A stretch of 48,440 nucleotides of DNA from Nocardioidaceae bacterium (lineage in GTDB: Bacteria > Actinomycetota > Actinomycetes > Propionibacteriales > Nocardioidaceae): assembly GCA_030655315.1 (NCBI GenBank), contig JAURVT010000038.1:1-48440 (forward strand), written 5' to 3'. The notes beneath the pieces were generated by a model. That model did not search any database. It had not been told where the DNA came from and saw only the letters and a list, made by a program, of their open reading frames with translations. Of this stretch, positions 4,906 to 42,795 are shown piece after piece. Within the stretch, counting starts at the first letter, position 1; every line of letters begins with the position of its first letter. The translations under genes were made by a program, and so were the position numbers.

Positions 4906-5577
4906 ATGGCACAGCACCACAGGCAGCCCGACCAGCACACCAGCCGTACGTCCCTGAGAGCCGTCGGCAGCGGTGACCCGGCGGACGCCGAGGTCCGCCG
5001 CCAGCAGCGCGAGCTGTTCGCCCTGGTGCTGCGCAGCGAGCCCAGCCGCCGCGGCACCCCGTACAGAGAGCGGACCGTCGGCGCCTACCTCGACGCCGTC
5101 GACTCCCTCGGCCGCTGGCTCGACGACCTCGACCACCCCGGCGGTTACGACAACCTGTCGGTCCATCATCTCAACGCCTACCTGACGACGTATCTCGAGC
5201 GGCACTCCATCGGCGGCCTGGTGACCAAGCAGGGCAACCTGCGTGTCTTCCTCGCCCACCTCGTCGACGAGCACGGCACGGACGATCTCTGGGGGTCGCC
5301 CAAGAGGCCGGTGAGCCGTCGTACACCCAAACCTCAATGGCTGGAGCGACTGGTCACATCCGTTGCGCTTGATCAAGAGTGCTCCGGTTACCCGATAGCG
5401 GTGTCGAAGGAGCCAGGTGAATGCTTGAAGCGGTCACAGCGTGACCCGGAGGGTCGGCTGACCCCGAGGTGTCCCGCGATGTCCTGCTGGGTGGCACCCT
5501 CGACGTGGTACATGACGGCCGCACGCACCAGTTGCCGTTGCTTGGCGAGGCCCTCGACCATCACATGTCCCGCCTGA
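4906..5577 (+). pseudogene. Truncated tyrosine-recombinase integrase (N-terminal part only)
   Basis: From the ATG at 4906, after an AGGTC-type ribosome site, the first roughly 145 residues resemble the N-terminal SAM-like, core-binding part of phage and island integrases: RERTVGAYLDAVDSLGRWLDD, then HHLNAYLTTYLERHS, and TKQGNLRVFLAHLVDEH. Similarity stops near 5335 (after PVSRRTPKP). The frame stays open to 5577, but the rest is antisense to a SorC-like remnant and looks non-coding. The catalytic domain with the R-H-R-Y residues is absent. The position next to the tRNA is where an island integrase belongs, so this is read as a deletion relic. Confidence 0.75.
5388..5561 (-). pseudogene. SorC/DeoR-like regulator remnant (N-terminal HTH)
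   Basis: On the minus strand, an ATG at 5561 (a GTG at 5564 is also possible) opens a 57-residue frame. Its first 38 residues have the N-terminus usual in SorC-family regulators: LVRAAVMYHVEGATQQDIAG then HLGVSRPS. After this the sequence diverges (GSRCDRFKH) and stops at 5388. The sugar-phosphate effector domain of about 250 residues is missing. It lies between the integrase relic and eutB, so it may once have controlled the neighbouring catabolic genes. It was found by reading the strand directly; the call rests on one motif. Confidence 0.55.
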
Positions 5578-5810
5578 GCATCTGCTCACCGCGTGAGCGA
5601 ATGCACACGTTACGGAGTGGCGGCGTCGAGGTCAACAGGCTGGTGCCGGCTCGTGCGACCTGTCGGGTCATCCGGTGCCGACCAACAAGAGCACAGACAC
5701 GGAATCGACCCGTTGTCCCGAGTTTGCGCATTCCTACGTATCGGCTCCGAACCACGTCAGGCCTAGGTTCAGACCACCAGATGTCCAAGCTCCCCAGGGA
5801 AGTACGTGCC

Positions 5811-7217
5811 GTGATCTATCGCCAACGCGTCGGTGAGACGACGTACCGCTTCACGGGCTTGGTCGACCTGATGGCCAAGGCCACCTCGAGACGGTCGGGC
5901 GACGAGCTGGCCGGCTGCGCCGCTGGCAGCGACGCCGAGCGAGCCGCTGCCCGGTGGGCGCTGTCGGAGGTCCCGCTCACGACGTTCCTCGAGGACCTGG
6001 TGATCCCCTACGAGTCCGACGAGATCACCCGGCTAATCATCGACAGCCACGATCGCGAGGCATTCGCGGTCGTGTCAGGCCTGACCGTCGGTGAGCTGCG
6101 GGACTGGCTCTTAGACGTGGCATCAAGTACGGGGGCCGGACCGGTTCTCGCGGCGCTCGCTGCCGGTCTGACTCCCGAGATGGTGGCAGCGGTCTCCAAG
6201 CTGATGCGAGCCCAAGACCTGGTGGCGGTCGCTCGCGCTGTCGAGGTGACCTCGGCCTATCGCACCACCATCGGGCAACCTGGGTGTCTGTCGACCCGGT
6301 TGCAGCCCAACCACCCGACCGATGACCTTCGCGGGGTCGCCGCGGCCGTGCTCGACGGTCTGCTTCTCGGGTGTGGCGATGCGGTCATCGGCATCAACCC
6401 CGCGTCGGACAACCCCCGAACAGCCACCGACCTGCTGAACCTGCTCGACGAGGTACGGACGCGTTACGACATACCCGTGCAGTCGTGCGTCCTCACGCAC
6501 GTCACGACGACGATCGACCTCATCGCCCGCGGCGCACCGGTGGACCTGGTCTTCCAGTCCATCGCCGGCACCGAAGCAGCGAACCGAGGCTTCGGCGTCG
6601 ACCTGGCCATCTTGGGTGAGGCGCACGCCGCCGCGGCTTCGCTCGGTCGTGGCACCGTGGGACAAAACGCCATGTACTTCGAGACCGGCCAGGGCTCGGC
6701 CCTCAGTGCCGACGCCCACCTGGGCACGGGCGGCGCGCCGGTGGACCAGCAGACCCTGGAGACCCGGGCGTACGGCGTGGCTCGGGTGTTCGAACCGCTG
6801 CTGGTGAACACCGTCGTCGGGTTCATCGGACCGGAGTACCTGTACAACGGCAAGCAGATCATCCGTGCCGGCCTGGAGGACCATTTCTGCGGAAAGCTGC
6901 TGGGCCTGCCCATGGGTGTGGACGTCTGCTACACCAACCACGCTGAGGCGGATCAGGACGACATGGACCTCCTGCTCACCATGCTCGGGGTGGCAGGTTG
7001 TCCCTTCGTGATCGCCGTGCCCGGCGCCGATGACGTGATGCTGGGATACCAGAGCACCTCCTTCCACGACGCCCTCTACGCCCGGGAGGTGCTGGGCCTG
7101 CGCCCGTCACCGGAATTCGAGGCCTGGCTCGCGGACTTGGGGATGATCGACGCACGCGGAGCCGTCGTGCCTGTCGACGTCGCCTCGTCTCCGCTGCGCG
7201 CGCTCGGGGCCGCCTGA
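5811..7217 (+). CDS. eutB: Ethanolamine ammonia-lyase large subunit (EutB)
   Basis: 468 residues from the GTG at 5811, chosen because AGGGAA lies 9 bases upstream and the product then aligns with the EutB N-terminus; an ATG at 5781 is the alternative. EutB pairs with EutC and adenosylcobalamin to turn ethanolamine into acetaldehyde and ammonia; some members accept 2-aminopropanol. Residues matching the enterobacterial active site are present: R163 and Q165 (TRLQPN), N196 (IGINPASD), E291 (YFETGQGS) and D371 (VDVCYTNH). GFIGPEYLYNGKQIIRAGLEDHF is also conserved. The stop overlaps the eutC start (ATGA). No EutA reactivase, aldehyde dehydrogenase or microcompartment shell gene is nearby. Confidence 0.95.
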   Translation: MIYRQRVGETTYRFTGLVDLMAKATSRRSGDELAGCAAGSDAERAAARWALSEVPLTTFLEDLVIPYESDEITRLIIDSHDREAFAVVSGLTVGELRDWLLDVASSTGAGPVLAALAAGLTPEMVAAVSKLMRAQDLVAVARAVEVTSAYRTTIGQPGCLSTRLQPNHPTDDLRGVAAAVLDGLLLGCGDAVIGINPASDNPRTATDLLNLLDEVRTRYDIPVQSCVLTHVTTTIDLIARGAPVDLVFQSIAGTEAANRGFGVDLAILGEAHAAAASLGRGTVGQNAMYFETGQGSALSADAHLGTGGAPVDQQTLETRAYGVARVFEPLLVNTVVGFIGPEYLYNGKQIIRAGLEDHFCGKLLGLPMGVDVCYTNHAEADQDDMDLLLTMLGVAGCPFVIAVPGADDVMLGYQSTSFHDALYAREVLGLRPSPEFEAWLADLGMIDARGAVVPVDVASSPLRALGAA

Positions 7218-7960
7218 TGACGCGGCCAGCTCAGGCCCGCACGACCGATGCGTGGGAGTCCTTGCGCCTGCACACGCCTGCTCGCATCGGGCTCGGTCGC
7301 ACGGGGAACGCCATCTCCACTCGCGAGGTGCTCGAGCTCGGCGCGGCGCATGCGGCGGCGCGGGACGCGGTTCACGACCCGCTCGACGTCGGCGACCTGT
7401 CCACACAGCTGAGACGGCTGGGGATCGGCGAGCCCCTCGTCGTCACTTCAGCGGCGCGTTCGCGCCCGGAGTACCTGCGCCGACCTGACCTGGGGCGGCG
7501 ACCGGCCGCAGGGCTTGGCAAGACCGAGACTGAGCACGACCTGGCCCTCGTCGTCGTCGACGGTCTGTCGCCGCGGGCCGTTCAGCTCCATGCCGTGCCG
7601 TTGCTCGAGGCGCTGCTGACCCGGATCGAGTCGCTGGTCGTTGCACCGCCAACCGTGGCGGTCCAGGGCCGGGTCGCGCTGGGTGACCACGTCGGGGCTG
7701 CGCACCGAGCCAGGCACGTGTTGGTGCTCGTGGGCGAACGGCCAGGCCTCTCGTCAACGGACAGCCTTGGCGCGTACCTCACTCACTCCCCCCGGCCAGG
7801 TCTTTCTGACTCCGCGCGCAACTGCGTGTCCAACATCCGTCCGCCCGGAGGCCTCTCGTACGACCAAGCGAGCCGGACGATCGCCGACCTGCTGCACCGT
7901 TCGCGCGCGATGGGCGCTACAGGGGTGGCGCTCAAGGACGAGTCGGCGCTCGGCATGTGA
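7217..7960 (+). CDS. eutC: Ethanolamine ammonia-lyase small subunit (EutC)
   Basis: 247 residues, somewhat shorter than enterobacterial EutC (about 295), mainly through a short N-terminus. Family blocks are RIGLGRTGNAISTREVLEL at about 23-41, AAARDAV, VVVDGLSPRAVQLHAVPLL, VLVGERPGLSSTDSLGAYLT, and SARNCVSNIRPPGGLSYDQA near the end. It forms the small subunit that completes the cobalamin site of EutB. It is translationally coupled to eutB. Its stop lies three bases from the stop of the convergent regulator gene, so the two transcripts meet tail to tail. Confidence 0.94.
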   Translation: MTRPAQARTTDAWESLRLHTPARIGLGRTGNAISTREVLELGAAHAAARDAVHDPLDVGDLSTQLRRLGIGEPLVVTSAARSRPEYLRRPDLGRRPAAGLGKTETEHDLALVVVDGLSPRAVQLHAVPLLEALLTRIESLVVAPPTVAVQGRVALGDHVGAAHRARHVLVLVGERPGLSSTDSLGAYLTHSPRPGLSDSARNCVSNIRPPGGLSYDQASRTIADLLHRSRAMGATGVALKDESALGM

Positions 7961-7963
7961 GCA

Positions 7964-9748
7964 TCAGCTCCACCACGGGGGGAGGCGGAAGGCGGCCTCG
8001 GTGTACGGGGCGGGATAGACGATGCGCTGGCGGTTGTCCTGGATCTGGAACACCAGGTGCGCCATCGCTATTGACGGGTCCGGCGTGGACAGCGGGTAGG
8101 CCAGTGCCGATTGGCCGACGTCGGTCAGGCTGTAGGCGCCGTTGACACCCCGGTGGACCGACCGGCGGATGGCCTCTGCCACCGATGTGAAGTCGCGCGG
8201 CGAGTCGGCGTCGGACCACGCGTTGGCCAGGATCCGGACCCGGTCGTAGGCAATCCCGGCGTGCGAGCGCCCCGGACTCACCGCGTAGGCGTCTCGGTAC
8301 CGAGCAGCGAAGTCGCGGGCGACCTTGTCCGAGTAGGTGCCGGTCACGGTAGCCCACAGGATGCCTTCGGCGCGAGGGCCCATGGCCACGCGGAACTGGG
8401 GGATGGACGGCGCGTAGAGGGAGTAGAGGACGGTCGGGCTGGGGGCGGCCAGGAAGGCGTCCATGAACTGCACGGTCTCGTGGACGAAGTAGCTGCCGAT
8501 GAGCACGGCTGTCGGTGCGAGCTGGGCGATGAGGCGACCCTGTTCGCGCCAGTCCACCTCACCGGTGACCTCGTCGGCCACGTAGGCGACCTTCCAGCCG
8601 CGTCGCTCGGCGAGCTCGATGGTGGCATCGATGCCGATGTTTCCGAGCTTCCAGCTTCCCCTCACGACGGCCAGGGTGCCGCTCGTCGCCGGCAGCTGCC
8701 CGCTGTCGCGGAGGGTGGTCATGGCCTCGACGAAGCCTGGTCCGTACCAGGTATCGCTCGGACAGATCTGGAACACCCGCCCGAAGCGGTCTGGCTCCCC
8801 CTCGACCAGCTGCGCCATCGAGTCCAGGGTCGCTGCGTGAAGGTACGGGGCGCCATGGTCGGCAGCGATGCGGTGGGCGATCTCCTGGTGCCCCAGGTAT
8901 CCCGAGAGCATGGCGTCGACGTCGCGGCCGGCCAGGTCGCTGAACGCGTGCTCGATGCTGTCGGCGTCCTTGATGTCGAGGTCGACCGACACCAGCTCGA
9001 TGGGCCGTCCGGAGATTCCTCCTCGGGCGTTGACCTCTCCGATGGCCAGCTCGGTCGCGCGGATCATCTCGATGCCGTCCTCGGCGGTCTCGCCGCTCTG
9101 CGGGATGGCGCCGCCGAGAAGGATGGGACGGGTGACCGACCGTCGGTGATGTCGGACGCGCGCCGGTGTGCGCGGGCGTCGGGTCGTCAGGTCCGCCGGA
9201 GCCTGGGGTGCGCTCACCATGCCGAAGAGCAAGCGTTCGAATCCCTCCGCGCCACCAGGTATAGGGAGAAGCACGAGGCTCTCCTCGACAGCGAGGGTCG
9301 CGGCCGCGGTGCGGGAGCGGAGACCGAGCTTGGCCAAGATGCGCTCGACGTGGGTGGTGATGGTCCTGGGGCTGGTCCACAGCCGGGCAGCGATATCGGC
9401 GTTGCTGAGTCCTCCCACCAGAAGTGTGAGCACATCGAGCTCGCGTGGGGTGATGCCGTGCGGGACGACGGCGGCGTCCTGCCAGGACAACGACGACCTC
9501 CGCGAGTCCCCGTCGCCGCGGGCACGGACGGTCGCAAACACCATATCGTCGTCCTCGTCGCGCCAATGGAAGGACAGCTCGATGTCCCCGTCCAGCGCGA
9601 GCGCGTTCCGGGCCAGCTCGACCAGGCCCTGGTAGGGGCCGAGCGCGTGCGCCAAGTGAACGCCGCGGACGCTGCGGAAGGTACCGACGGCGTCCAGGAC
9701 CAGCTCGTGGGTGTCACGGGGGGCCGGCGCCCTCGAAGGATTGGCCAT
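7964..9748 (-). CDS. LuxR-type HTH fused to a periplasmic-binding-protein sensor
   Basis: 594 residues with no signal peptide or membrane segment. Residues 1-95 are a small domain I do not recognise. Residues 99-155 are a LuxR/GerE helix-turn-helix: ITPRELDVLTLLVGGLSNAD, then SPRTITTHVERILAKLGLRS. Residues 208-594 look like a type-1 branched-chain amino acid/amide-binding protein (Peripla_BP_6, AmiC/UrtA-like), starting ILLGGAIPQSGETAEDGIEM and with NARGGISGRPIELV. I infer a cytoplasmic one-component regulator that binds a pathway compound and controls the adjacent genes, analogous to AmiC sensing but with its own DNA-binding domain. The ATG follows a GGGAG site. It lies last in the direction of the importer operon, 119 bases after the permease gene. 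Confidence 0.8.
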   Translation of the reverse strand: MANPSRAPAPRDTHELVLDAVGTFRSVRGVHLAHALGPYQGLVELARNALALDGDIELSFHWRDEDDDMVFATVRARGDGDSRRSSLSWQDAAVVPHGITPRELDVLTLLVGGLSNADIAARLWTSPRTITTHVERILAKLGLRSRTAAATLAVEESLVLLPIPGGAEGFERLLFGMVSAPQAPADLTTRRPRTPARVRHHRRSVTRPILLGGAIPQSGETAEDGIEMIRATELAIGEVNARGGISGRPIELVSVDLDIKDADSIEHAFSDLAGRDVDAMLSGYLGHQEIAHRIAADHGAPYLHAATLDSMAQLVEGEPDRFGRVFQICPSDTWYGPGFVEAMTTLRDSGQLPATSGTLAVVRGSWKLGNIGIDATIELAERRGWKVAYVADEVTGEVDWREQGRLIAQLAPTAVLIGSYFVHETVQFMDAFLAAPSPTVLYSLYAPSIPQFRVAMGPRAEGILWATVTGTYSDKVARDFAARYRDAYAVSPGRSHAGIAYDRVRILANAWSDADSPRDFTSVAEAIRRSVHRGVNGAYSLTDVGQSALAYPLSTPDPSIAMAHLVFQIQDNRQRIVYPAPYTEAAFRLPPWWS

Positions 9749-9867: not shown

Positions 9868-10881
9868 TCAGGAACGCCGGGACCGGCTGTAGCTGTCCAG
9901 AGCCACGGCGATCAGGACGATGGTGCCCTTGGCGATGAGCTGCCAGTTCTGGCTGAGATTCAGGCTGTAGAACAAGTTCGTCAGCGTCGCGAAGATGAGC
10001 AGCCCGACGGCTGAGCGCCATACCGCGCCTTCACCACCCCGGAGCGAGGTGCCGCCGACGATGACGATGGCGATCGCGTCGAGGGCGAGGCTCGCCCCGA
10101 CGTCGGCCTGACCGACGCCGAGCCTGGAGGCGTCGATGGTACCGGCGAACGCGGCCAGCAGTCCGGTCATCACGTACACGCTGGCGGTGATGCGGGGGAC
10201 GCGCAGACCCGAGAGCCAGCTGGCCTCGTGGTTCCCGCCGACGGCATAGACGTTCCTGCCGTATCGAGTGGCCGCGAGCAGGACGCCGCCGACGACGAAG
10301 GTGACGGCCAGGATGACGATCGGTGTGGGGATCCCTGCGGTTCGCGAGGTCGCGAGAACCTTGAACGAGGGGTCGGCGACGATGAACGGCGCTGACTTTG
10401 AGTAGATGTAGGCGATGCCCGAGATGATCGACGCGCTCCCGAGCGTGGCGACGAACGGGTTGATCCGCAGGACCGCGACGAGGATGCCGTTGACTACGCC
10501 ACACACACCACCTGCGGCGAGCGCAGCGAGGATGCCCAGCGCCGGTTGGCCGGTCGAGAGGGTGACACCGGCCGAGACGGTCGCGCCGAGCGCGTAGGTG
10601 GCGCCGACCGACAGGTCGAAGCCGCCGGAGATGATCACGAACGTCATGCCGAGCGCGATGATCCCCACGGCCGCGTTCTGCACGAGGATGTCGCGGACGT
10701 TCTCTGGTGCCAGGAAACCTGGGTAGAGGATCGAGGCGAGGATGATCAGCGCGATCAGGACGGCGATCATCGAGAACCGAGAGAGCAGCTGGGAGCGACC
10801 CGGTGAAGCGTCGACCTCGATGGCCGTGGCGTCAGGGCCGGTGGGCACCTCGGTCGGGCTGGTTTCAGTGGACTGGCTCAT
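9868..10881 (-). CDS. RbsC-type ABC sugar/cyclitol transporter permease
   Basis: 337 residues from the ATG at 10881, preceded by GGAGAGCTCC. About 8-10 hydrophobic segments follow a 30-residue cytoplasmic N-terminus. The BPD_transp_2 (RbsC/XylH/AraH) motifs are present: MTFVIISGGFDLSVGATYAL, NPFVATLGSASIISGIAYIY, RYGRNVYAVGGNHEASWLSG, and LGVGQADVGASLALDAIAIV with VIVGGTSLRGGEG. This is the membrane channel of the importer. The start lies inside the end of the ATPase gene (17-base overlap), so translation is coupled. The substrate is not predictable from the family alone, which includes importers of ribose, inositol, autoinducer-2 and other polyols. Confidence 0.92.
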   Translation of the reverse strand: MSQSTETSPTEVPTGPDATAIEVDASPGRSQLLSRFSMIAVLIALIILASILYPGFLAPENVRDILVQNAAVGIIALGMTFVIISGGFDLSVGATYALGATVSAGVTLSTGQPALGILAALAAGGVCGVVNGILVAVLRINPFVATLGSASIISGIAYIYSKSAPFIVADPSFKVLATSRTAGIPTPIVILAVTFVVGGVLLAATRYGRNVYAVGGNHEASWLSGLRVPRITASVYVMTGLLAAFAGTIDASRLGVGQADVGASLALDAIAIVIVGGTSLRGGEGAVWRSAVGLLIFATLTNLFYSLNLSQNWQLIAKGTIVLIAVALDSYSRSRRS

Positions 10882-12382
10882 GGAGCTCTCCTGCGTCGAA
10901 GCCGTGGCGGACGATGTCGTTGACGTTGAACTCGGGGTCGTTGCTGGCGATCTCTCGCACCACGCGGCCGTGGGCGAAGACGAGCAAGCGGTTGGCGATC
11001 GCCAGGACCTCTTCGAGCTCGGAAGAGGTGACGACCACGGCCGCACCTTCCGAGGCGAGCTCGACCAGCGAGGCCAGCACCTCGGCCTTGGCGCCTATGT
11101 CGATGCCGCGGGTGGGTTCGTCGACGATGAGGACCCGCGGGCGGTGTCCGGCCCACTTGGCAAGCAGGACCTTCTGTTGGTTCCCGCCGGACAGGTTGCG
11201 TACTGGTTCGGAGAGCCGGTCACGTCGGAAAGCGAAGAACTCGGCGACGTCGCCGGACTGGGCCTTCTCATCCTGGCGCGCCAAGAACGGCGAGCGGCCG
11301 CTGGCGCGGCCGAGCCAGTAGTTGCTTGCGCCGTCCATGCCCAGGACCAGTGCCTGCTTGCGGCTCTCGGGGACCATCACGACTCCGCTGCGCACGGCGG
11401 CGCCGATGGATCGTGGCCAGGCTCGCTCGACGCCGTCGATGCGCAGGGTGCCGCTGGTCTGCGGCTCGGCGCCCGCGACGGCGCGCATGAAGCTGGTGCG
11501 ACCCGAGCCGACCAGTCCCCAGAGCCCGACGACCTCGCCGGCGCGGGCGTCCATGCTGACGTCGTGGACACGGCCGGGAAGGTCGACGTGCTCGACGGCG
11601 AGCACCTCGGCTCCGATGGGGTGGGTGCCTCGGTCGGCCAGCCTGTCGATACTGCGTCCGACCATCGCCTCGATCAGGTTCCGCTTCGTCCACTGCCCCC
11701 GGGGTGCGGTCGTCACGACCGACCCGTCGCGCAGCACGGTCACGGTGTCGCTCAGTTCGAGCACCTCGTCGAGGTTGTGGCTGACGAAGACGATGGTGGT
11801 GCCCCTGGCATTGACCTGTCGAAGCACCCGGTAGAGGGTCTCGCGCTCGTGCTCGGCCAGTGCCGCGGTGGGTTCGTCCAGGAGGATGACGCGACCGTCC
11901 GACTCGATGCCCCGCATGATCTCGAGCATCTGCTGCTGCGAGACGGAGAGGTCTCGGGCGAGGATCTCGGGATCCACGTGGATGTCCAGCTCATCGCACA
12001 TCTCGAGGTAACGACGTCGCATCCCGCGCCGGTCGAGCAGGCCGCGCCGAGTGCGTGTCTGCCCGAGGAACACGTTGGCCTCGGCACTCAGACCGGGCAC
12101 CATGTTGAGCTCCTGGTAGACCGCCACGAGGCCGGCGTCGCGGCTCTCGCGGGGCGAGCCGCCTGCCAGGCGGGTCCCGAAGATGTCGACGGTCCCTGCA
12201 TCGGCTGACAGGCGTCCACTGACGAGCCCCAGCAACGTGGACTTGCCGGCACCGTTCTCTCCCACCAATGCGTGGATCTGGCCGGCACCGATGGTGACGT
12301 CGGCACGCTGGAGAGCGACGGCTCCACCGAACACCTTGCGGGCGCCGCGGCAGACGATGGCGTCGGCGGCTTGGTCGTTCAT
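10865..12382 (-). CDS. RbsA-type ABC transporter ATPase (double cassette)
   Basis: 505 residues from the ATG at 12382 (GGAAGG 8 bases upstream); a GTG nine bases earlier is less well placed. Two ABC cassettes are seen in tandem. The first has Walker A GENGAGKST, signature LSVSQQQM and Walker B VILLDEPTAAL. The second has the degenerate P-loop GLVGSGRTS usual for RbsA, the signature NLSGGNQQK and VLIVDEPTRGID. It energises import through the permease of the next gene. It sits between the binding-protein and permease genes, the normal order of sugar CUT2 importers. Confidence 0.93.
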   Translation of the reverse strand: MNDQAADAIVCRGARKVFGGAVALQRADVTIGAGQIHALVGENGAGKSTLLGLVSGRLSADAGTVDIFGTRLAGGSPRESRDAGLVAVYQELNMVPGLSAEANVFLGQTRTRRGLLDRRGMRRRYLEMCDELDIHVDPEILARDLSVSQQQMLEIMRGIESDGRVILLDEPTAALAEHERETLYRVLRQVNARGTTIVFVSHNLDEVLELSDTVTVLRDGSVVTTAPRGQWTKRNLIEAMVGRSIDRLADRGTHPIGAEVLAVEHVDLPGRVHDVSMDARAGEVVGLWGLVGSGRTSFMRAVAGAEPQTSGTLRIDGVERAWPRSIGAAVRSGVVMVPESRKQALVLGMDGASNYWLGRASGRSPFLARQDEKAQSGDVAEFFAFRRDRLSEPVRNLSGGNQQKVLLAKWAGHRPRVLIVDEPTRGIDIGAKAEVLASLVELASEGAAVVVTSSELEEVLAIANRLLVFAHGRVVREIASNDPEFNVNDIVRHGFDAGELHEPVH

Positions 12383-12411
12383 GGTCGGCACCTTCCGTCG
12401 TCGATCCGGGC

Positions 12412-13440
12412 TCAGTACTCGGCGGTGTAGTCGGCCACGTTGTCGGCGGTGACGAACGGTGTGCCGGGGAGCTGGTCGGACTCGGTGAGATTGATGAACG
12501 GGGGTACCTCTTCACCGGAGACGTAGGAGCCGATGGCCTCGATCGCCTCGCGGGTCTCGGCGCGGGGCAGCATCATCACGGTCTGGGCGAGGTTGCCGTC
12601 CTGGACGTTCTTCAGGGCCCACTCGTCGCCGCCGAAGTCGTACACCTTGATGTCCTGGCCGGCGAGTGCCTCGACGACCCCGCGGGTCATGCCTGAGAAG
12701 TTCGACATCAAGATGTCGAGGTCGGGGTTGGCCCGGGCAATGGTCTGCGCGGCGTCGAAGGCCTTGGGGGTGGTGTAGTCGGTGGTCTGCTGTGCGACGA
12801 CCTCGAAGCCGTCCTCCTTCTTGAACGCCTTGGCAGCATCGAAGAAGGCGATGGAGTTGGCATTCAGGTCCGGACCGGAGATGAGCCCGATCTTGGCTCC
12901 GTCGGGGTTCTCCTCGATGACGGACGCGACCCAGGCCTGGTAGACGTCGAGGGTCTGTCCCCCGACGTAGGTGATCGTCCCGGGCTGGTGGGTCTCGTCG
13001 CCGAGCTTGGTGGCGCGGCCACAGATGGGCAGGTTGAACACCGAGACGAGGATCTTCTTCTCCGGTGCCGTCTTGGTGAGGATGTCGCAGACGAGGTTGC
13101 CGTCGTTGGGCTCGACGGCGAACGCGTTGTACTTCCCGCTGGTGATCGCGTTCTGCATCTGGTCGAACTGCACCTGGGCGTCGAACTGGCCGTCGAACAC
13201 GTCCAGGGTCGCCCCCATCTCCTTGGCGGTCTTCTTGGCCTCGTCGATGGAGGCCTGGAGGTAGGCGTTGGAGGCACCCGCGGAGAAGTAGGCGATCTTG
13301 AGGTCGGCAGGGTCCGAGACCGGCGCGTCGATGATGTCGTTGCTCGCGGTGGCCGAGGGAGTCTCGGTCGAGCAGCCTGCCGTGATGAGGCAAGCCGACA
13401 AGGCGAGCGCGGCCGCCTTGGTGAGGTGACGCAGCTTCAT
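12412..13440 (-). CDS. RbsB-type substrate-binding lipoprotein of the ABC importer
   Basis: 342 residues. The N-terminus is a lipoprotein signal with lipobox LITAGC, cysteine at position 23, followed by a Ser/Thr-rich linker. From about residue 47 a Peripla_BP_4 fold begins with LKIAYFSAGASNAYLQA. Later come VEPNDG, YVGGQTL, GLISGPDLNANS and the LSNFSG-like MSNFSGMTRGVVEALAG near 245. It captures the substrate outside the membrane for the adjacent ATPase and permease. Several aromatic and acidic residues (Y52, D84, D234 region) could face the ligand, but the ligand cannot be named. Spacing to the ATPase is 29 bases. Confidence 0.9.
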   Translation of the reverse strand: MKLRHLTKAAALALSACLITAGCSTETPSATASNDIIDAPVSDPADLKIAYFSAGASNAYLQASIDEAKKTAKEMGATLDVFDGQFDAQVQFDQMQNAITSGKYNAFAVEPNDGNLVCDILTKTAPEKKILVSVFNLPICGRATKLGDETHQPGTITYVGGQTLDVYQAWVASVIEENPDGAKIGLISGPDLNANSIAFFDAAKAFKKEDGFEVVAQQTTDYTTPKAFDAAQTIARANPDLDILMSNFSGMTRGVVEALAGQDIKVYDFGGDEWALKNVQDGNLAQTVMMLPRAETREAIEAIGSYVSGEEVPPFINLTESDQLPGTPFVTADNVADYTAEY

Positions 13441-13500: not shown

Positions 13501-14340
13501 TCAGTCGGACCAGGTGTCGTAGATCTGGCTCAGAGAGGCGAACCAGACGCCTTCATGGGAGGCCATGTGCTCGAGGAGCCGTTCCATCCCGAGCATGTGG
13601 TGGGCTCGGCCGATCGTCTGAGGGTGCACGGTGATCGCGAGGACGGGCGACGACTCGTGGGCGTAGGCGTAGTCGAAGTGGTCCTTCCACCGCTGGAACA
13701 TCACCTCGCTCGATCCCAGGCCCTGGTTGACGCCTGGGATGTACTCGGCGACGGGGAAGTCGTCGAGGAACCAGGAGACGGGGAACTCGAGTAGCGGGCT
13801 GGGTGTGCCGAGCACCGATCCCTCCTCCCAGCGCACGTCGACCGGGCGCGGGTGGTAGGGCTGGAAATCACGACCCATCAACGAGGAGTCCCACTCGAAG
13901 CCGGTGCTCTCGAGCAGCTGGAGGGTGTGCTCGGTGAAGTCCCATGCCGGTGAGCGGTATCCGCGGGGGCGGACGCCGACGTGCTTGAGGTGGCCCTCGA
14001 TGGTCGCCTCCATCAACCGGACCTCGGTGTCCTGGTCCAGGCTCGGCACCGACTCGTGAAAACAACCGTGGGCGGCGATCTCCTGGCCGGCCTCGAGGAT
14101 GGTGGCGAACGCCTCGGGGAAGGTGGCCATCGAGTGCACGGGGGTGCACCACGTACCGGTGATGCCGAACTGGTCGAACAGCCTCAGCAGACGGGGCACG
14201 CCGACCTCCGCGCCGAATTCACCGCGGGAGAGGTAGCTGGGGCTGGTCTTGGCAAAGGTGCCCATCCAGACGCTGTGCGCGTCGAAGTCGGCGCCGATGT
14301 TGACCGCGATCTTGACGCCGTCGGGGAGGTTCAGGGGCAT
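13501..14340 (-). CDS. NodB-fold polysaccharide-deacetylase-like hydrolase
   Basis: 279 residues without a signal peptide, so cytoplasmic. Metal-site residues of the NodB/CDA family are visible: D18 and D20 in IGADFDAHS, and H91 and H95 in AAHGCFHES. GYRSPAWDF (about 128-136) is the Arg-x-Pro-type motif and TVHPQTIGR carries the C-terminal His. Cytoplasmic members of this group (PuuE allantoinase, cyclic imidases, HpPgdA-like) cut ring or amide C-N bonds in small molecules instead of wall polymers. Sitting with an importer and a nitrilase-family enzyme, a small-molecule amidohydrolase role is more likely than wall remodelling. Confidence 0.85.
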   Translation of the reverse strand: MPLNLPDGVKIAVNIGADFDAHSVWMGTFAKTSPSYLSRGEFGAEVGVPRLLRLFDQFGITGTWCTPVHSMATFPEAFATILEAGQEIAAHGCFHESVPSLDQDTEVRLMEATIEGHLKHVGVRPRGYRSPAWDFTEHTLQLLESTGFEWDSSLMGRDFQPYHPRPVDVRWEEGSVLGTPSPLLEFPVSWFLDDFPVAEYIPGVNQGLGSSEVMFQRWKDHFDYAYAHESSPVLAITVHPQTIGRAHHMLGMERLLEHMASHEGVWFASLSQIYDTWSD

Positions 14341-14367: not shown

Positions 14368-15240
14368 TCAGAACGCGGCGTGCGAGTAGGTGCCGTACAG
14401 GTCGCGACGGCGCTGGCGGTCCTTGTAGGTGGTTGCGGCGCCGGTGGCCCTGTTCTGGTGCAGCAGGTCGAGGTCGAGCTCGGCACTGACGACGTTCTGC
14501 ACTCCGGTCGCGCCCTCGACGATCACGCCGTTCGCGGGGAAGTCGACGTCGCAAGGCGAGAGCACCGACGGGCGCCCCCAGCCGGGAGCGAGCGGCGCGG
14601 ACAGGTGTGAGACGACCGGACAATGGACGACGTAGACCTGGTCCTCGATGGCTCGTGCGGCCGCGCAGTGCCGCACTCGCCAGAAGCCCGCCTCGGCGAA
14701 GGTGTAGGACGGAACGAGCAGCACTTCGGCGCCCATCAGGGTGAGTGCAGTCGTGACTTCGGGGATCTCGGCCTCGTAGCAAATGGCGATCCCGACCTTC
14801 ACGCCATCGATGTCGTAGACGGTCAGGTCATCACCCTCATGGGTGTCCCACTGGGACTCCGCGGGGAAGATGTGGGTCTTGGAGTGACGGTGCTGCTCAC
14901 CGTTGGGCCCGAACAGGAACGCGATGTTCTCGTGGCCCCGGTCGGTGGCGACCAGGTGGCTGCCGGCGAGGATCCACTGGCCACGGGCCGCGGCCTGGGT
15001 GGCGAAGAAGTCGATGTAGGAGTCGGTGAACTCCGAGACGCGGTTCAACGTCGAGATGTCGTCCTTCTCCCATGCCGGGTCAACGGTGAAGAGGGCCGCC
15101 GTGAGCAGCTCGGGCAGCACGACCAAGCGCGAGCCCTCGGTGCTGTCGAGCAGCTCCTTGGTTTGGTTGGCGAAGTCGTCGAACGAGTCGACGTCGCGCA
15201 TCTCGAACTGCGCGGCGGCGACGGTCAGTGTGCGGGGCAT
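14368..15240 (-). CDS. Nitrilase-superfamily carbon-nitrogen hydrolase
   Basis: 290 residues from the ATG at 15240; an ATG at 15258 adds six residues, and neither has a clear ribosome site. The catalytic set of the superfamily is complete: E44 (VVLPELLT), K121 (HSKTHIFPAE) and C154 (AICYEAEIPE). The length and the ICYEAE form fit the amidase and N-carbamoyl hydrolase branches better than true nitrilases. It hydrolyses a C-N bond in an unknown amide or carbamoyl compound in the cytoplasm. It precedes the deacetylase-like gene by 27 bases in the same operon. Confidence 0.88.
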   Translation of the reverse strand: MPRTLTVAAAQFEMRDVDSFDDFANQTKELLDSTEGSRLVVLPELLTAALFTVDPAWEKDDISTLNRVSEFTDSYIDFFATQAAARGQWILAGSHLVATDRGHENIAFLFGPNGEQHRHSKTHIFPAESQWDTHEGDDLTVYDIDGVKVGIAICYEAEIPEVTTALTLMGAEVLLVPSYTFAEAGFWRVRHCAAARAIEDQVYVVHCPVVSHLSAPLAPGWGRPSVLSPCDVDFPANGVIVEGATGVQNVVSAELDLDLLHQNRATGAATTYKDRQRRRDLYGTYSHAAF

Positions 15241-15291
15241 GGGAGGGAGTCCAGACATGGAGAGGGTTGAGGTGGGGGCGTGCGGACGGCG

Positions 15292-16017
15292 CTACTGCGC
15301 GAGGAGCCCGCCGTCGATGACGAGCTCTGACCCGGTGACGTACCGGGCCTCGTCACTGGCGAGGTACAGACAGCCGAAGGCGATGTCGCGTGGGTCGGCG
15401 CCGAAGCCGAGCGGGGTCAGACCGATCACCTCGGCGTTCTTGTCGGCGGGCTGCCGTTCGGTCAGAGGCGTCGCGATCCAGCCCGGCACCACGGTGTTGA
15501 CCCGTACGCCGTCTGCGGCATAGGTGATCGCACCGTTGCGGGTCAGACCCCGGACCGCGCCCTTGGACGCCTGGTAGGCCGCCACGCCTTCGGACCCGAC
15601 CACGCCCCAGGCGGAGGACAGGTTGATGATCGAGCCCGCGTGCTGGGCCCTCATCGGCGCCAGCGCGGTGCGCATGCCCAGGAAGACTCCGGTCTGGTCG
15701 ACCCCCACCACGCGGGACCAGTCCTCGGGCGTGACTGTCGTGATGTCGGCGTAGTCGATCACTCCTGCGTTGTTCACCAGGACGTCGAGCCGACCGTGCT
15801 CGTTCAGCACGCCGTCGACCACCGCCTTCCAGGCGTGCTGGTCGGTGACGTCGAGCTCGCGGTAGTCGATGGGGTGATCGCTCTCGGACAGCGGGGGCTT
15901 GACCACGTCCGCGGCGATCACCGTGGCACCGTTCTCGGCGAACAGCTGGGCGGTCGCCCAGCCGATGCCCATGGCGGCTCCGGTGACGATCGCGACCTTG
16001 TCGGTGAGGCGTGTCAT
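15292..16017 (-). CDS. SDR-family NAD(P)-dependent alcohol dehydrogenase
   Basis: 241 residues, the classical SDR length. The cofactor motif is TGAAMGIG at about 12-19, then NNAG (about 89-92). The active-site serine lies in INLSSAWG and Y-x-x-x-K in YQASK. PGWIATPL and a C-terminal VIDGGLLAQ are typical. It oxidises a hydroxyl or reduces a carbonyl in the cytoplasm. It shares operon position and about half of its residues with the next upstream SDR (16036-16755), which suggests an old duplication and stepwise or alternative substrates. Confidence 0.88.
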   Translation of the reverse strand: MTRLTDKVAIVTGAAMGIGWATAQLFAENGATVIAADVVKPPLSESDHPIDYRELDVTDQHAWKAVVDGVLNEHGRLDVLVNNAGVIDYADITTVTPEDWSRVVGVDQTGVFLGMRTALAPMRAQHAGSIINLSSAWGVVGSEGVAAYQASKGAVRGLTRNGAITYAADGVRVNTVVPGWIATPLTERQPADKNAEVIGLTPLGFGADPRDIAFGCLYLASDEARYVTGSELVIDGGLLAQ

Positions 16018-16035: not shown

Positions 16036-16755
16036 TCAGCGGGCGAGGTAGCCGCCGTCGACCGGGAGGTCGACGCCGGTGATGAAGCGGGCTTCGGACG
16101 AGGCCAGGAAGCAGACAGCCGCGGCGATGTCTGCGGGCTCGCCTCCGTGACCCATCGGCGTGGCGCCGAGGAACGCCTCGTTCAGGTCGTCGGTCTGGCC
16201 GAGCGTGAGTGGCGTGCGGATCCAGCCCGGGAGTACGGCGTTCGCGCGGATGCCCTGGCGGGCGTAGCTGACAGCGGCGTTCTTCGTCATGGTCAGCACG
16301 GCGTGCTTAGACGCGTGGTAGGCCGCAACCCCGCTCACCGATGCTGCGCCGCAGATCGAGGAGATGTTGACGATGCTGCCCGAACCCTGTCGCAGCATCG
16401 GCCGCAGTGCGGCCTGCATTCCCAAGAGCACGCCGGTCTGGTTGATGTCGATGATGCGCTGCCACTCGGCCAACTCGAGCTCGTGCAGGCTGTCGTACCC
16501 GCTCACGCCGGCGTTGTTCACGAGAATGTCCAGGCGGCCGTGCTGCGACTCGATCTCGGAGACGACCTCCCGCCACCGCTCGCCGTCCGTGACGTCGTGG
16601 GACCGGGTGACGATCGAGTCGCTGAGGTCGGACTGGTCGCGGATGTCGGTTGCGATGACCACCGCGCCCGCGTCGGCCAGGGCGCAGGCGATGCCGTGCC
16701 CGATGCCTTGGGCGGCGCCGGTCACCAGGGCGACCGATCCAGTCAGATCGGGCAT
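16036..16755 (-). CDS. SDR-family dehydrogenase, first gene of the catabolic operon
   Basis: 239 residues with TGAAQGIG (cofactor), NNAG, the serine in NISSICG, YHASK and the terminal VDGGYLAR. It resembles its neighbour throughout (GVFLGM against GVLLGM, VVPGWIATPL against VLPGWIRTPL), so the pair are paralogues. As first gene of the long minus-strand operon it is the best place to find the control region, which lies in 16756-17032. The substrate is unknown; a hydroxyl-bearing small molecule brought in by the importer is a reasonable inference. Confidence 0.88.
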   Translation of the reverse strand: MPDLTGSVALVTGAAQGIGHGIACALADAGAVVIATDIRDQSDLSDSIVTRSHDVTDGERWREVVSEIESQHGRLDILVNNAGVSGYDSLHELELAEWQRIIDINQTGVLLGMQAALRPMLRQGSGSIVNISSICGAASVSGVAAYHASKHAVLTMTKNAAVSYARQGIRANAVLPGWIRTPLTLGQTDDLNEAFLGATPMGHGGEPADIAAAVCFLASSEARFITGVDLPVDGGYLAR

Positions 16756-17032
16756 GTGCGGGTCTCCTTCAGCGAGGCGTCCGGGGGCGTTTCCCGGTAT
16801 GCCTGGACCGTATGAAGACGGCCGAGGTTGCTGCGTCGGTAGAAGTACGTATCCGTGTGGTCTGGGTCACGGAATGTGTCTGCCACGTTGTGTCTTCGTT
16901 TCCGCGGCGAAACCAATGTTGGCCGCTGGCGATCGCCCGAGCCGCGGGTCGGGCCTTGTCCTTGCTTCGGTCAATCGGCTGCGCTGGAGTTCCCGACTCG
17001 ATGATGATGAATCAATGGACAAAGGGGAACGA
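16756..17032. promoter_or_regulatory. Divergent control region of the catabolic operon and secreted-protein gene
   Basis: These 277 bases separate the minus-strand operon from a plus-strand gene and hold no credible ORF. Two short inverted repeats might be operators: CCGTG/CACGG arms at 16854-16872 and GTTTC/GAAAC arms around CGCGGC at 16898-16913. Short repeats of this size arise by chance, so the sites are only candidates for the fusion regulator. Confidence 0.4.
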
Positions 17033-18444: not shown

Positions 18445-20673
18445 TCAGCTGAGGTGGCGACCACCCCGGCCCGTCGGGTACTTGCTGTCGTACATCCGCA
18501 TGTCCGCCAGGTGCAGCAGCGGACCGAACGTGCTGGCGTCCGAGGGACTGAGACCGACCCCGATGCTCGCGGTGACCGCGATGGCCTGTCCGTCGACGAG
18601 GGTAGGTTCACTGATCCGGGCGGTGAGCTGCTCGGCGACGCGGGCGGCCTCGCTCGACGCCGAGGCCGGGTCGAGATCCAGCAGGGCGACGAGGAACTCG
18701 TCCCCGCCGAGGCGAGCCACCAGGTCCGAGCGCCGCAGGTGCGCGCGCAGGCGCACCCCGACCGCCGTCAGCACCTGGTCGCCCGTGGTGTGACCGAACG
18801 TGTCGTTCACCGGTTTGAACCCGTCGATGTCGACGAACAGGAGTGCGACCGCCCGCCCCGTCAGCTGGGCGTCCATCATCGCGACCTCGACCCGCTCCTG
18901 GAACCGGCGTCGGTTCATCAACCCCGTCAACGGGTCGGTGTAGGCCATGGACTCGATGCGATCGAGGTACCGGCCGGCCCGCTCGCGCTCACGGTCCAGG
19001 CCGCGCTGGGCCTCGACCCGGGCGGTGACGTCGTTCTGCACCCCGATGTACTGGACGACGCGGTCGTCGCGGTCCCGCACGGGAGACAGGTGCACCTCGT
19101 TCCACCACGGCACGCGCCGGGGCCCGCGGTAGTTCAGCAGCGTCTCGCGCGCCTCCCGGCCGTCGGCCATGGCGGCCCGCAGCCGCGCCACGGCTGCACG
19201 GTCGGTGTCCTCGCCCTGCATGAAGCGGCAGTTGCGGCCCAACAGCTCAGCAACGGGGACGCCGGAGAGGAACTCAAAGGCCGTGTTGACGTAGATCAGT
19301 GGCTGGTCGGGGGCCAGCATGTCCGCGATGGCGACGCCGTTGCTGGTCGCGGCCAGCGCACGCTCCAGCAGCGGGAGGTCGATCGGCACCGTCACGGACG
19401 CCGGGGCGACGGCCGCGACACGCGGGTCCGCCGCGGCGGGCGGAGTCTGGCCCGGCCGCTGGGCGACGACCCGCATCAACAGCTGCTCGCAGGCCGCCAC
19501 GACGGTGTCGCGGTCGTAGGTCAGGGCGTACTCGAACGACCGGTCCCGGTCCGGGCCGGTGTCACCGAGGTCACGAGCCAGCAGGGCGGCGCTGAAGTGC
19601 GGACCCAGGACCACGACGTCCCACTCGGTGCGCACCGGGTCGTCCGCCTGCAGGTCCGCGCCTCGGACTCCCGGTGCCGGCTCGGCCGGCAGCCCGTCGC
19701 CGAGGGCGCAGACGAACCCCACGCGGTCGACCAGGTCGCGGTAGCGCGACACCGTGGCCGGGGTGAAGTGCCGGTGCTCCTGGAACGTCGAGGCCACCAC
19801 GCACGTCTCCCCCACCCGCATCGCCTCGCGCTCGAGCTGCTTGCTCACCTCGATCAGCAACGACTTGGGCGAGACGCGCAGCGGCAGCTGCTCCGGCAGG
19901 CACGTGAAGGGCGACACGGCGTCGGCGCGGGGTCGTGCCACCGGCAGCAGCAGCTCCCCGACCGGCAGGTCCGGCGCCGCGTGAGGTGCGGGCCGACCGA
20001 ACCTCCAGCCCTGCCCCAGCGTGGCGCCGAGGGCGAGCGCCATCGTCACGTGCCGGTCGTCCTCGATCCCCTCCGCGAGGACCAGGGCGCCCGACCGCTC
20101 GGCGTACGCGTTGACGGCGTTCATGATCTCGGCGACGGCGGGACCCGGTCGCTGCTGCACCAGGCGCAGGTCGAGCTTGACGACGTCCGGCCGCAACAGG
20201 GGCATGAAGGCCAGCGAGGCGGCCTCGGCGCCGACGTCGTCCAAGGCCACGCGCCACCCCATCTCGCGCACCCGGTCGACCGTCCTCAACAGCTCGGCCG
20301 GCCGCGCGGCCAAGGATCGCTCGGTGATCTCCAGGACCACCTGCAGGCTCGACGGGGTGCCTTCCGCGAGGCCCAGGAGCTGGTCCAGCGCGGCGGTGTC
20401 GAGGACGTCGGGCTCGACGTTCACGAACAGGGTCAGAGGAGCCGCCAGCCCGAGCTCGGCGGCGCCACGCAGGGCCGCGGCGCGGCACGCGGCGTCCAGC
20501 TCGGCCAGACACCCCTCGGCCGACGCCGCGGCGAACATCGCCAGCGGGCTGGCCATCGGTCCCTCGGGGCCACGGGCGAGCGCCTCGTACCCCACGACCT
20601 CACCGGTCGCCAGACGGATGATGGGCTGGTAGACGCTGCGCACGTCGCCGGTGCGCACGATCTCCGAGATCAT
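18445..20673 (-). CDS. EAL-DICT-LOV-GGDEF cyclic-di-GMP enzyme
   Basis: 742 residues, soluble, four regions in order. EAL phosphodiesterase (about 10-225): E30-A-L motif, N85, E115, DD145-146, K166, E201 and Q221 are all present, so it looks active. A middle region (about 260-400) fits a DICT sensory domain. A PAS/LOV domain (about 435-555) carries GRNCRFMQGED with C482, the flavin-adduct cysteine of blue-light LOV sensors, and YIGVQNDVT with the signalling Gln. GGDEF cyclase (about 575-735): GGDEF at 656-660 and an inhibitory RxxD at 647-650. I infer a bifunctional enzyme that makes or breaks c-di-GMP under blue-light control. It is the first gene right of the island. Confidence 0.88.
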   Translation of the reverse strand: MISEIVRTGDVRSVYQPIIRLATGEVVGYEALARGPEGPMASPLAMFAAASAEGCLAELDAACRAAALRGAAELGLAAPLTLFVNVEPDVLDTAALDQLLGLAEGTPSSLQVVLEITERSLAARPAELLRTVDRVREMGWRVALDDVGAEAASLAFMPLLRPDVVKLDLRLVQQRPGPAVAEIMNAVNAYAERSGALVLAEGIEDDRHVTMALALGATLGQGWRFGRPAPHAAPDLPVGELLLPVARPRADAVSPFTCLPEQLPLRVSPKSLLIEVSKQLEREAMRVGETCVVASTFQEHRHFTPATVSRYRDLVDRVGFVCALGDGLPAEPAPGVRGADLQADDPVRTEWDVVVLGPHFSAALLARDLGDTGPDRDRSFEYALTYDRDTVVAACEQLLMRVVAQRPGQTPPAAADPRVAAVAPASVTVPIDLPLLERALAATSNGVAIADMLAPDQPLIYVNTAFEFLSGVPVAELLGRNCRFMQGEDTDRAAVARLRAAMADGREARETLLNYRGPRRVPWWNEVHLSPVRDRDDRVVQYIGVQNDVTARVEAQRGLDRERERAGRYLDRIESMAYTDPLTGLMNRRRFQERVEVAMMDAQLTGRAVALLFVDIDGFKPVNDTFGHTTGDQVLTAVGVRLRAHLRRSDLVARLGGDEFLVALLDLDPASASSEAARVAEQLTARISEPTLVDGQAIAVTASIGVGLSPSDASTFGPLLHLADMRMYDSKYPTGRGGRHLS

Positions 20674-40903: not shown

Positions 40904-41470
40904 TCAGGGTCGGACGGCGTCTGCTGCGCCGCGTCTGACCGCCTTCCGGAGCACGGACGGCCATCTGGTGGTGTGCGGCGTCCGGCTCGACCGCGCGAAC
41001 CAGGTCGGAGCCTGTGGCGACGGGCGCACGCTGTCGTCGCCGTCTCCGGCGGCGATGTCGGTCGGGGTGACCGTTCGTGCGCCCGGTGGTGCGCCAGGTC
41101 GCGGTGGACGAGACACGCGGCGCAACAGACGTCGTCCGTGCAAGCGGACGGGACCGGTCGGGTCGGGGCCACGGACGGCGCGGAGCTGCCATCGCACGAT
41201 GGTCCAGGTGACGAGCGCGAACCCGAAGCCGTAGTCCTCCACCGGGATGCTGCCGGGTACCCGTAGTCCGATGATCGCCTCTCGGTCGTAGGCGACCACT
41301 GGCAGCGGCCCGCGCGTCAGCCACCCGTCGACCAGCACCATGAAGAAGGCGATGATGGCCATCGACCACCAGTAGCGGGCGGTGGAGAAGATCCCCGTCC
41401 TCCACCAGAGGCGCTCGAGCACGACGACGACCAGCACGGCCACGAGCGCCGCGACCGTGTAACCGGGCAT
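40904..41470 (-). CDS. crtYd: Lycopene cyclase domain protein CrtYd with a long tail
   Basis: 188 residues. The first 100 are a CrtYd-type half-cyclase: three membrane helices, RTGIFSTARYWWSMAIIAFF and the P-V-E-D motif at 76-79 (SIPVEDYGFGFALVTWTIV). Together with CrtYc it forms the heterodimeric beta-cyclase that turns lycopene into beta-carotene. Residues 101-188 are a Pro/Arg/Ser-rich extension that most members lack; it may be a disordered tail or a frame running into former non-coding DNA. The start overlaps the crtYc stop by one base (TGATG). Confidence 0.87.
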   Translation of the reverse strand: MPGYTVAALVAVLVVVVLERLWWRTGIFSTARYWWSMAIIAFFMVLVDGWLTRGPLPVVAYDREAIIGLRVPGSIPVEDYGFGFALVTWTIVRWQLRAVRGPDPTGPVRLHGRRLLRRVSRPPRPGAPPGARTVTPTDIAAGDGDDSVRPSPQAPTWFARSSRTPHTTRWPSVLRKAVRRGAADAVRP

Positions 41471-41811
41471 CAGGGTGCACCGCCTGATCGACTCCGCCGG
41501 CTCCACCCGAGCACCAGTCCGACTCCCTCCCACGTGAGCAGCGCGCACGTGGGGACCACGAGGAAGAAGGCCAGCTCCTCGATCGGCAGATCCCCGGGCA
41601 GGACGAGGCCGCTGAGTCCGACTCCCGGGAAGCTCCAGTGCCCCAGGGACACCCCGAGGACGTCCCACAGCAGGAACGTCACGACCACCGGCACCAGGAC
41701 GGCGACCAGGCGCCCGGGCCTTCGGTAGACCCGGGCCCCGAGCAGCTCGAGCGGACAGGTGATCAGCAGGCACCCGGTCAGCACGAGGAGATAGGTCGGG
41801 CCACCGGTCAC
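41470..41811 (-). CDS. crtYc: Lycopene cyclase domain protein CrtYc
   Basis: 113 residues from the GTG at 41811, which overlaps the blh stop (GTGA) and gives the usual CrtYc length. Three membrane helices. The signatures are TYLLVLTGCLLITCPLELLG at the start and the catalytic-type P-I-E-E motif at 76-79 in DLPIEELAFFLVVPTCALLT with WEGV. It pairs with CrtYd to cyclise lycopene ends in the membrane, supplying beta-carotene for retinal. Confidence 0.9.
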   Translation of the reverse strand: MTGGPTYLLVLTGCLLITCPLELLGARVYRRPGRLVAVLVPVVVTFLLWDVLGVSLGHWSFPGVGLSGLVLPGDLPIEELAFFLVVPTCALLTWEGVGLVLGWSRRSRSGGAP

Positions 41812-42785: not shown

Positions 42786-42795
42786 CGCACCGACC

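Follow-up and report, generated by a model that had tools for sequence, protein, structure and literature searches.

How did a LuxR-type DNA-binding domain come to share one polypeptide with a receptor of the ABC-transporter kind, and what might the joint protein regulate? The question is raised by a gene, here called REG, on a contig of a Nocardioidaceae bacterium (GenBank JAURVT010000038.1) of which a stretch of 48,440 nucleotides, hereafter the window, was analyzed.

Architecture of REG

The gene and its parts are as follows.

7964..9748, minus strand: REG, the fused regulator, 594 aa (ORF translation, Pfam, PDB match)
9464..9748, minus strand: residues 1-95, N-terminal segment with no Pfam match (Pfam, model, profile comparison)
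9290..9454, minus strand: GerE/LuxR-type HTH, residues 99-153 (Pfam, E 1.5e-15)
9134..9274, minus strand: linker, residues 159-205, with LPxPGG near its start common in the fused family (family alignment)
7970..9133, minus strand: Peripla_BP_6/HAAT-type substrate-binding domain, residues 206-593, complete (Pfam, PDB 3h5l, profile)

REG is a single unbroken ATG frame of 594 aa on the minus strand, with AGGGAG 6 bases upstream of the ATG. An earlier note on this DNA had read it as a LuxR/GerE HTH followed by a full Peripla_BP_6 fold without a signal peptide, and had proposed domain searches of residues 99-155 and 208-594; these bear the reading out. Pfam GerE matches residues 99-153 with 57 bits (curated cut-off 23.5), the best matches of this HTH include the DosR, LiaR/VraR and NarL structures, and the HTH is modelled well (block mean pLDDT 83-93 across residues 101-150). 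Pfam Peripla_BP_6 matches residues 209-537 (E 1.2e-20, 75 bits, cut-off 31.7). In a PDB sequence search residues 206-593 align to 12-409 of 3h5l (E 7.3e-54), so that the receptor domain lacks nothing up to its C-terminus; an 11-sequence receptor profile matches 3h5l at E 2.7e-76. Read by eye against exported relatives, which bear Tat or lipoprotein leaders (also read by eye), REG has no visible export leader; the HTH and linker precede the receptor domain where the exported kin have theirs. For every part of REG including the linker dN/dS is below 1 in the three pairs compared, ranging over 0.02-0.19 for the HTH and receptor and 0.05-0.60 for the N-terminus and linker. The whole-protein AlphaFold model (4-row alignment) was poor, with a mean pLDDT of 45, and was excluded from fold claims.

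The sensor had also been likened to UrtA and AmiC; close kinship to UrtA is not supported. UrtA membership was rejected, as REG scores 35.2 bits with TIGR03669 against a cut-off of 494.8; Peripla_BP_5 (AmiC-type) reaches 26.9 bits against a cut-off of 27, in a single short stretch. The LacI HTH, Peripla_BP_1 and Peripla_BP_3 have no Pfam match in REG at E 0.01. By sequence comparison the sensor is HAAT-type, with 3h5l as its closest solved structure.

Distribution of the fusion

The GerE-Peripla_BP_6 fusion was found intact 28 times; the copies come from Actinomycetota and from two plasmids, of which one is actinobacterial and the other alphaproteobacterial. These are the window copy and loci L013, L014, L018, L020-L030, L046-L048, L075-L082, L086 and L087 (L017 and L019 hold the same genes as L024 and L025 and were counted once); the fusion architecture was read from Pfam for four of the 28 and from BLAST coverage of HTH and receptor for the others. 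In genome samples, across whose tallies our own and already known genomes recur, the family sample had 7 of 294 genomes matching at E 1e-40 (own included) in 8 places, all fused; the class sample had 10 of 394 (5 fused, 5 receptor only) and the phylum sample 5 of 396 (4 fused, 1 receptor only). At E 1e-60, 9 of 220 genomes in the family of G568 match, each with a fused place, and 3 of 166 in the order of G572. Two further samples (3 of 27 and 2 of 22 matched) gave no new fused copies, and a scan of genome contigs gave three relatives, two from genomes already met.

Among 72,556 plasmid records 139 match at 1e-5 and 44 at 1e-20; among the latter the intact fusion is on two, from Agrobacterium tumefaciens 14-818c and Paenarthrobacter sp. 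YJN-D. This search covered plasmid records only and is no measure of frequency in alphaproteobacterial chromosomes. Both annotated plasmid copies are named 'ABC transporter substrate-binding protein', so the annotation hides the regulator class. Three Paracoccus pantotrophus plasmid records match in 4-5 pieces, and both of the two that were opened are broken, the fused gene being split into several frames (L015 9841-13412; L016 6001-7374). A plasmid of Rhodococcus sp. JS3073 carries a 166-residue end fragment (L057 5968-6456, 49% identical), the rest of which was not found within the 12-kb stretch.

A literature search of open-licence PMC papers found no description of this fusion, and PMC3466318, which tabulates 991 LuxR proteins of 53 actinobacteria, lists no periplasmic-binding-protein architecture. 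The earlier note had allowed that the combination might prove to be a large, well-described family; it appears instead to be an undescribed, small, once-evolved one, such joins being known in principle.

Origin of the sensor

In a tree of 41 receptor domains and two distant outgroups, the 18 fused rows form one clade (99/99) whose sister is a group of eight exported receptors (node 96/99); the outgroup branches are very long in this tree, and those of L013 and L014 are long too. When ten more fused and five more exported rows were added and the outgroup was left out, all 28 fused rows fell on one side of a branch (100/99). All 28 fused sensors are one group, and in the rooted tree of 18 fused rows that group is nested among exported ABC-transporter receptors, which points to one origin. 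These computed trees derive the REG sensor from an exported transporter-receptor subfamily; its recruitment was therefore independent of LacI, as the earlier note had supposed.

Two leaderless receptors lie on a separate branch of the rooted tree. On a plasmid of Aminobacter niigataensis DMFA1 (L059 1-7215) the gene for the related receptor without leader adjoins those for a PAS histidine kinase and a LuxR-type response regulator, and a dimethylformamidase gene is close by; this set is an unfused, two-component counterpart of the REG idea. On a plasmid of Ensifer adhaerens M8 (L058 1521-7260) a histidine kinase and a LuxR response regulator accompany the leaderless receptor, and an exported receptor from this superfamily is encoded divergently to the three. 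According to PMC4543880, DmfR is a LuxR activator of dimethylformamidase.

The N-terminal segment

Residues 1-95 had been put down as a further unknown domain. They do lack a family: Pfam gives none even at a permissive limit (best 0.083, chance level), neither Response_reg (REC) nor an autoinducer-binding domain appears at E 10, and a PDB profile search gave nothing below E 0.17. That the domain is wholly new is not supported, since its sequence is like that of the stretch ahead of the HTH in stand-alone LuxR regulators whose genes adjoin sister-group exported receptors. In L101-L104 such a regulator adjoins, and is divergent from, a sister-clade exported receptor. REG residues 18-160 match the L103 regulator at E 1.4e-16, the HTH being part of that alignment. 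With a profile of N-termini (HTH excluded, 948 sequences) the best unfused matches are the regulators of L102 (3.7e-4), L101 (6e-3) and L103 (1e-2); an unrelated frame scores 0.019 and the L104 regulator is absent from the matches, so that only L102 stands clear. Profile-profile comparison gives a probability of 88 and E 3e-6.

The segment is poorly kept (15-23% identity between the window and distant clades). A model of residues 1-165 has a mean pLDDT of 63, good in the HTH and poor in the N-terminus; residues 11-90, at pLDDT 45-57, have a low-confidence beta-beta-alpha-beta-beta-beta topology that may hint at a PAS-like fold. VqmA and EL222 are among the structural matches to this low-confidence model, with poor rmsd.

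The likeness to regulators that adjoin the receptor genes suggests that two neighboring genes were joined, and the simplest reading would be the joining of a truncated neighbor regulator to the receptor. The two genes are divergent today, so a rearrangement would have been needed.

Beside the Nocardioides REG paralogues (L037 3393-5960, L038 12496-14968) are a stand-alone LuxR regulator and an amidase-signature enzyme; the HTH of this regulator is 59% identical to that of REG over 49 residues.

Neighborhood and putative target operon

The genes around REG in the window are listed here.

16036..16755, minus strand: SDR2, short-chain dehydrogenase, first gene of the putative target operon (Pfam)
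15292..16017, minus strand: SDR1, short-chain dehydrogenase (Pfam)
14368..15258, minus strand: CNH, carbon-nitrogen hydrolase of the nitrilase superfamily (Pfam)
13501..14340, minus strand: PDA, polysaccharide-deacetylase-fold hydrolase (Pfam, NCBIfam)
12412..13440, minus strand: SBP4, RbsB-like sugar-type binding protein, Peripla_BP_4 (Pfam, NCBIfam)
10865..12391, minus strand: ABC ATPase, AraG/RbsA-like (Pfam, NCBIfam)
9868..10881, minus strand: ABC permease, AraH/RbsC-like, start set by eye within frame 9868-11046 (Pfam, NCBIfam)
7217..7960, plus strand: EutC, ethanolamine ammonia-lyase small subunit (Pfam, NCBIfam)
5814..7217, plus strand: EutB, ethanolamine ammonia-lyase large subunit, start set by eye (Pfam, NCBIfam)

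The best NCBIfam match of PDA is the allantoinase PuuE, far below cut-off. The EutB profile begins at residue 117-126 of frame 5469-7217, and the ends of EutC and REG are separated by three bases.

The order SDR2-SDR1-CNH-PDA-SBP4-ATPase-permease-REG is common to the window and five close relatives; eutB is near, in varying position. We searched 11-25 kb per locus, and 48 kb for the window, and found a PuuE-like PDA homologue near REG in 26 of 28 loci; the two exceptions, L042 and L093, have HyuA/HyuB. In various loci REG has CNH, SDRs, HyuA/B, an AAT-like acyltransferase or a luciferase-like monooxygenase in its vicinity. The hydrolase neighborhood points to a cyclic amide or imide pathway; the idea of a cyclic imide draws on general chemical background. 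The freed amine may perhaps go to organism-specific enzymes, namely eutBC here, an amine oxidase in Paenarthrobacter and GlnT in Agrobacterium. In L043, L053-L055, L091, L092, L094, L098 and L099 the fused regulator clusters with an exported homologue of its own sensor, and LivG/F-type ATPase genes are in these clusters where called, though not in L054.

In the broken Paracoccus locus L015, PDA and CNH are each in two pieces. Elsewhere in the window, lycopene cyclase, beta-carotene dioxygenase and bacteriorhodopsin-like genes lie in a row (40904-43647, minus strand), likely a rhodopsin with its retinal pathway, and an EAL-DICT-PAS-GGDEF protein with EAL first (18445-20673, minus strand) is likely a cyclic-di-GMP enzyme.

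A candidate operator

Two elements stand before the putative target operon.

16833..16852, minus strand: candidate operator ATACGTACTTCTACCGACGC, ahead of the operon from SDR2 to permease (matrix of ten relatives' sites)
16807..16812, minus strand: TACGGT, putative -10 box, beginning 20 nt past the candidate operator (spacing)

If TACGGT is the -10 box, its distance of 20 nt would center the candidate operator near -42.5. In five relatives RTACGTNNNNCNACSGAYGC occurs before SDR2 and before eutB, ten promoters in all, and TAnnnT starts 20 nt after it in all ten; in L024, L025 and L044 both promoters lie in a single intergenic region, each with its own site. The matrix of these ten sites has its top match in the window at 16833-16852 (score 23.9; next 16.9), and on 30 random windows it reached a maximum of 17.7 with a mean of 12.0. 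A search pattern, for which the window site was one of the sites considered, fits the 4.18-Mb own genome exactly at one place, 16833-16852, and with two mismatches at one more. The second-best matrix match in the window (5827-5846, minus strand, 16.9), just inside eutB, is probably chance, as random windows reach such scores occasionally. Of the two regions that the earlier note had named for gel shift, 16756-17032 contains the candidate operator; before eutB the matrix finds none in the window (the best score there ranks 70th of 48,421 positions), although five relatives have one in that place. It found none either in the alphaproteobacterial loci L013 and L015.

For 8 of 10 other loci the best promoter match is in the top three of its locus (Fisher p 9e-7; L013 and L015 fail). 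In this test some promoter limits were set knowing the matches, L053-L055 belong to a single family, and L037, L038 and L041 (ranks 3, 4 and 2) were omitted as near-duplicates. Near-palindromes in the fused loci are hardly above chance (25 found, 20.5 expected), and we rejected the loose 12-bp dyad as a signal by itself, as no commoner than chance; only position and sequence are therefore telling. A dyad-plus-(-10) rule gave 23 matches in 401,594 bases of 19 loci, the same loci from which it was derived, with 0-5 in six shuffles and 1 match in 187,917 bases of 32 control loci; it also finds nine of the ten promoters above. By these computations a near-palindromic site of about 20 bp recurs before REG-linked operons.

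The strict dyad-plus-(-10) rule was fixed before ten new fused loci were fetched, and it did not generalize to them: it gave 2 matches versus 1.75 in shuffles (controls: other spacings 0-3, reversed core 1, another dyad 2). Both matches (L098, L099) are directly before PDA. A rule for the dyad only, with 18 positions, drew on the older loci but was set up after some new-locus promoter sequences were seen. It gave 11 matches in 9 of the 10 new loci (30 shuffles: mean 1.17, maximum 5); being partly informed, it was blind for L093, L095, L096 and L097, four of the nine matched loci. By our own frame calls each of the 11 matches falls at a gene start, immediately ahead of one, or in a gap between divergent genes; those of L096 and L097 are about 5 kb away from REG. 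L090, the nearest relative among the new loci, has only a degenerate site of the same spacing (read by eye). Among the control loci 3 of 32 match, two of them before close-kin exported receptors (L031, L035). In Aminobacter sp. MDW-2 a weak dyad with two mismatches (L065 3828) precedes an exported receptor gene.

The arms of the site vary with the HTH. An RRT recognition helix goes with CGGTCA/TGACCG arms in 6 of 7 loci, L014 being the exception; other site-bearing loci have CGT arms, CGTCA or, in Nocardioides, CGTCG/CGTAG. The seven RRT loci include near-duplicates and so represent few independent events, and L090 was missed by the regular expression.

How REG may act

We consider it probable, from the sequence data above, that REG is a cytoplasmic one-component activator of cyclic amide or imide catabolism. 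Its C-terminal half, derived from an ABC-transporter receptor, would have shed the export signal and detect a small molecule within the cytoplasm. The GerE HTH, presumably dimeric, would bind the near-palindromic site of about 20 bp near -42.5 and recruit RNA polymerase there, a class II activation suggested by the position of the site. REG would in this way switch on the SDR2-SDR1-CNH-PDA-SBP4-ATPase-permease operon once the substrate has entered the cell, the sensed substrate probably being a cyclic amide or imide, or its ring-opened product, attacked by PDA and CNH. We infer binding to this site, dimerization, activation over repression and the ligand class.

REG might instead be a LacI-like repressor that blocks the -35 region and lets go on binding ligand, which we think unlikely. 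The candidate operator overlaps the expected place of the -35 box, and in L091, L092 and L094 a TACAGT box facing REG stands a few bases ahead of the dyad (by eye), which suits autorepression. GerE-type class II activators usually have a gap of 19-20 nt between site and -10 box; against repression, this gap to TAnnnT is found on the enzyme and transporter side in the first set of loci, but it is absent in most new loci, which limits the point.

Unlikely too, in our judgement, is that the dyad belongs to another, stand-alone LuxR regulator, with REG acting elsewhere or through that regulator. The dyads before the exported receptors of L031 and L035, where no fused regulator was found nearby, mean that another LuxR protein may bind it; L031 is only a 3.8-kb contig with PDA divergent from the receptor; in L035 a stand-alone LuxR regulator is divergent from the dyad-bearing receptor. 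In L097 another LuxR-type gene is closer to the dyad than REG. On the other side, the arm sequence tracks the REG recognition helix with the one exception, in few independent events, and the same rule finds no dyad in L102-L104, three of the four loci with a stand-alone regulator.

That REG is an AmiC-like accessory, its sensor half mainly contacting the transporter or a partner regulator and its HTH secondary, seems very unlikely. The Aminobacter and Ensifer plasmids do offer leaderless receptors of this superfamily next to a pair of histidine kinase and LuxR response regulator (and, in Aminobacter, close to dimethylformamidase), but the REG HTH is conserved and under purifying selection, and the fusion of sensor and HTH makes a partner protein unnecessary. 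A sequencing error or frameshift joining two genes, which the earlier note had considered, or a chance similarity, can be dismissed as next to impossible, since the same order is found in one frame in 28 intact genes from separate assemblies and no supporting points were found.

A history can also be proposed, and here we find the case evenly balanced. A receptor and an adjacent LuxR regulator would have fused once into a cytoplasmic transcription factor, and the family would have spread, in part by way of plasmids, together with PuuE-like amide/imide hydrolase operons and with a single recognizable operator preserved, so that likely relatives of both parents, the product and the site can all be traced. 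The REG family would then be a traceable case of a transport protein turning into a transcription factor, in which close relatives of both likely parents are still adjacent in other genomes. With a predicted operator and linked hydrolases, the ligand and regulon of REG are directly testable, and REG-type proteins could act as sensors for amide or imide pollutants.

Comparison with known systems

The nearest solved relative of the sensor, 3h5l, was deposited as a putative branched-chain amino acid ABC transporter protein and is related over 388 residues; it is a receptor chain without HTH, and exported relatives sit with LivGFH-type transporter genes. REG shares the GerE HTH with NarL/FixJ and PAS-LuxR regulators, with a weak PAS-like hint at its N-terminus from modelling; unlike NarL/FixJ it has no receiver domain, and its HTH is not C-terminal but is followed by the 388-residue sensor.

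AmiC of Pseudomonas exists as a protein apart from the antiterminator AmiR, which it holds. The REG sensor is likewise a cytoplasmic receptor of the same superfamily, and AmiC/AmiR (cited in PMC9602780) controls amide catabolism. It differs from AmiC in being covalently joined to the DNA-binding domain. In XylR of E. coli and AraR of Bacillus, LacI-type sensors are combined with AraC and GntR HTHs. REG similarly joins a PBP-fold sensor to a foreign HTH class, but the HTH is GerE and the sensor a transporter receptor, not of LacI type.

In LacI/GalR regulators an N-terminal HTH is followed by a type I periplasmic-binding-protein fold, which serves in the cytoplasm as a small-molecule sensor. 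REG has the same order of an N-terminal HTH and a cytoplasmic PBP-fold sensor; unlike them it has a GerE HTH, a sensor from the Peripla_BP_6/HAAT transporter branch and a separate origin, and the position of its site suggests activation.
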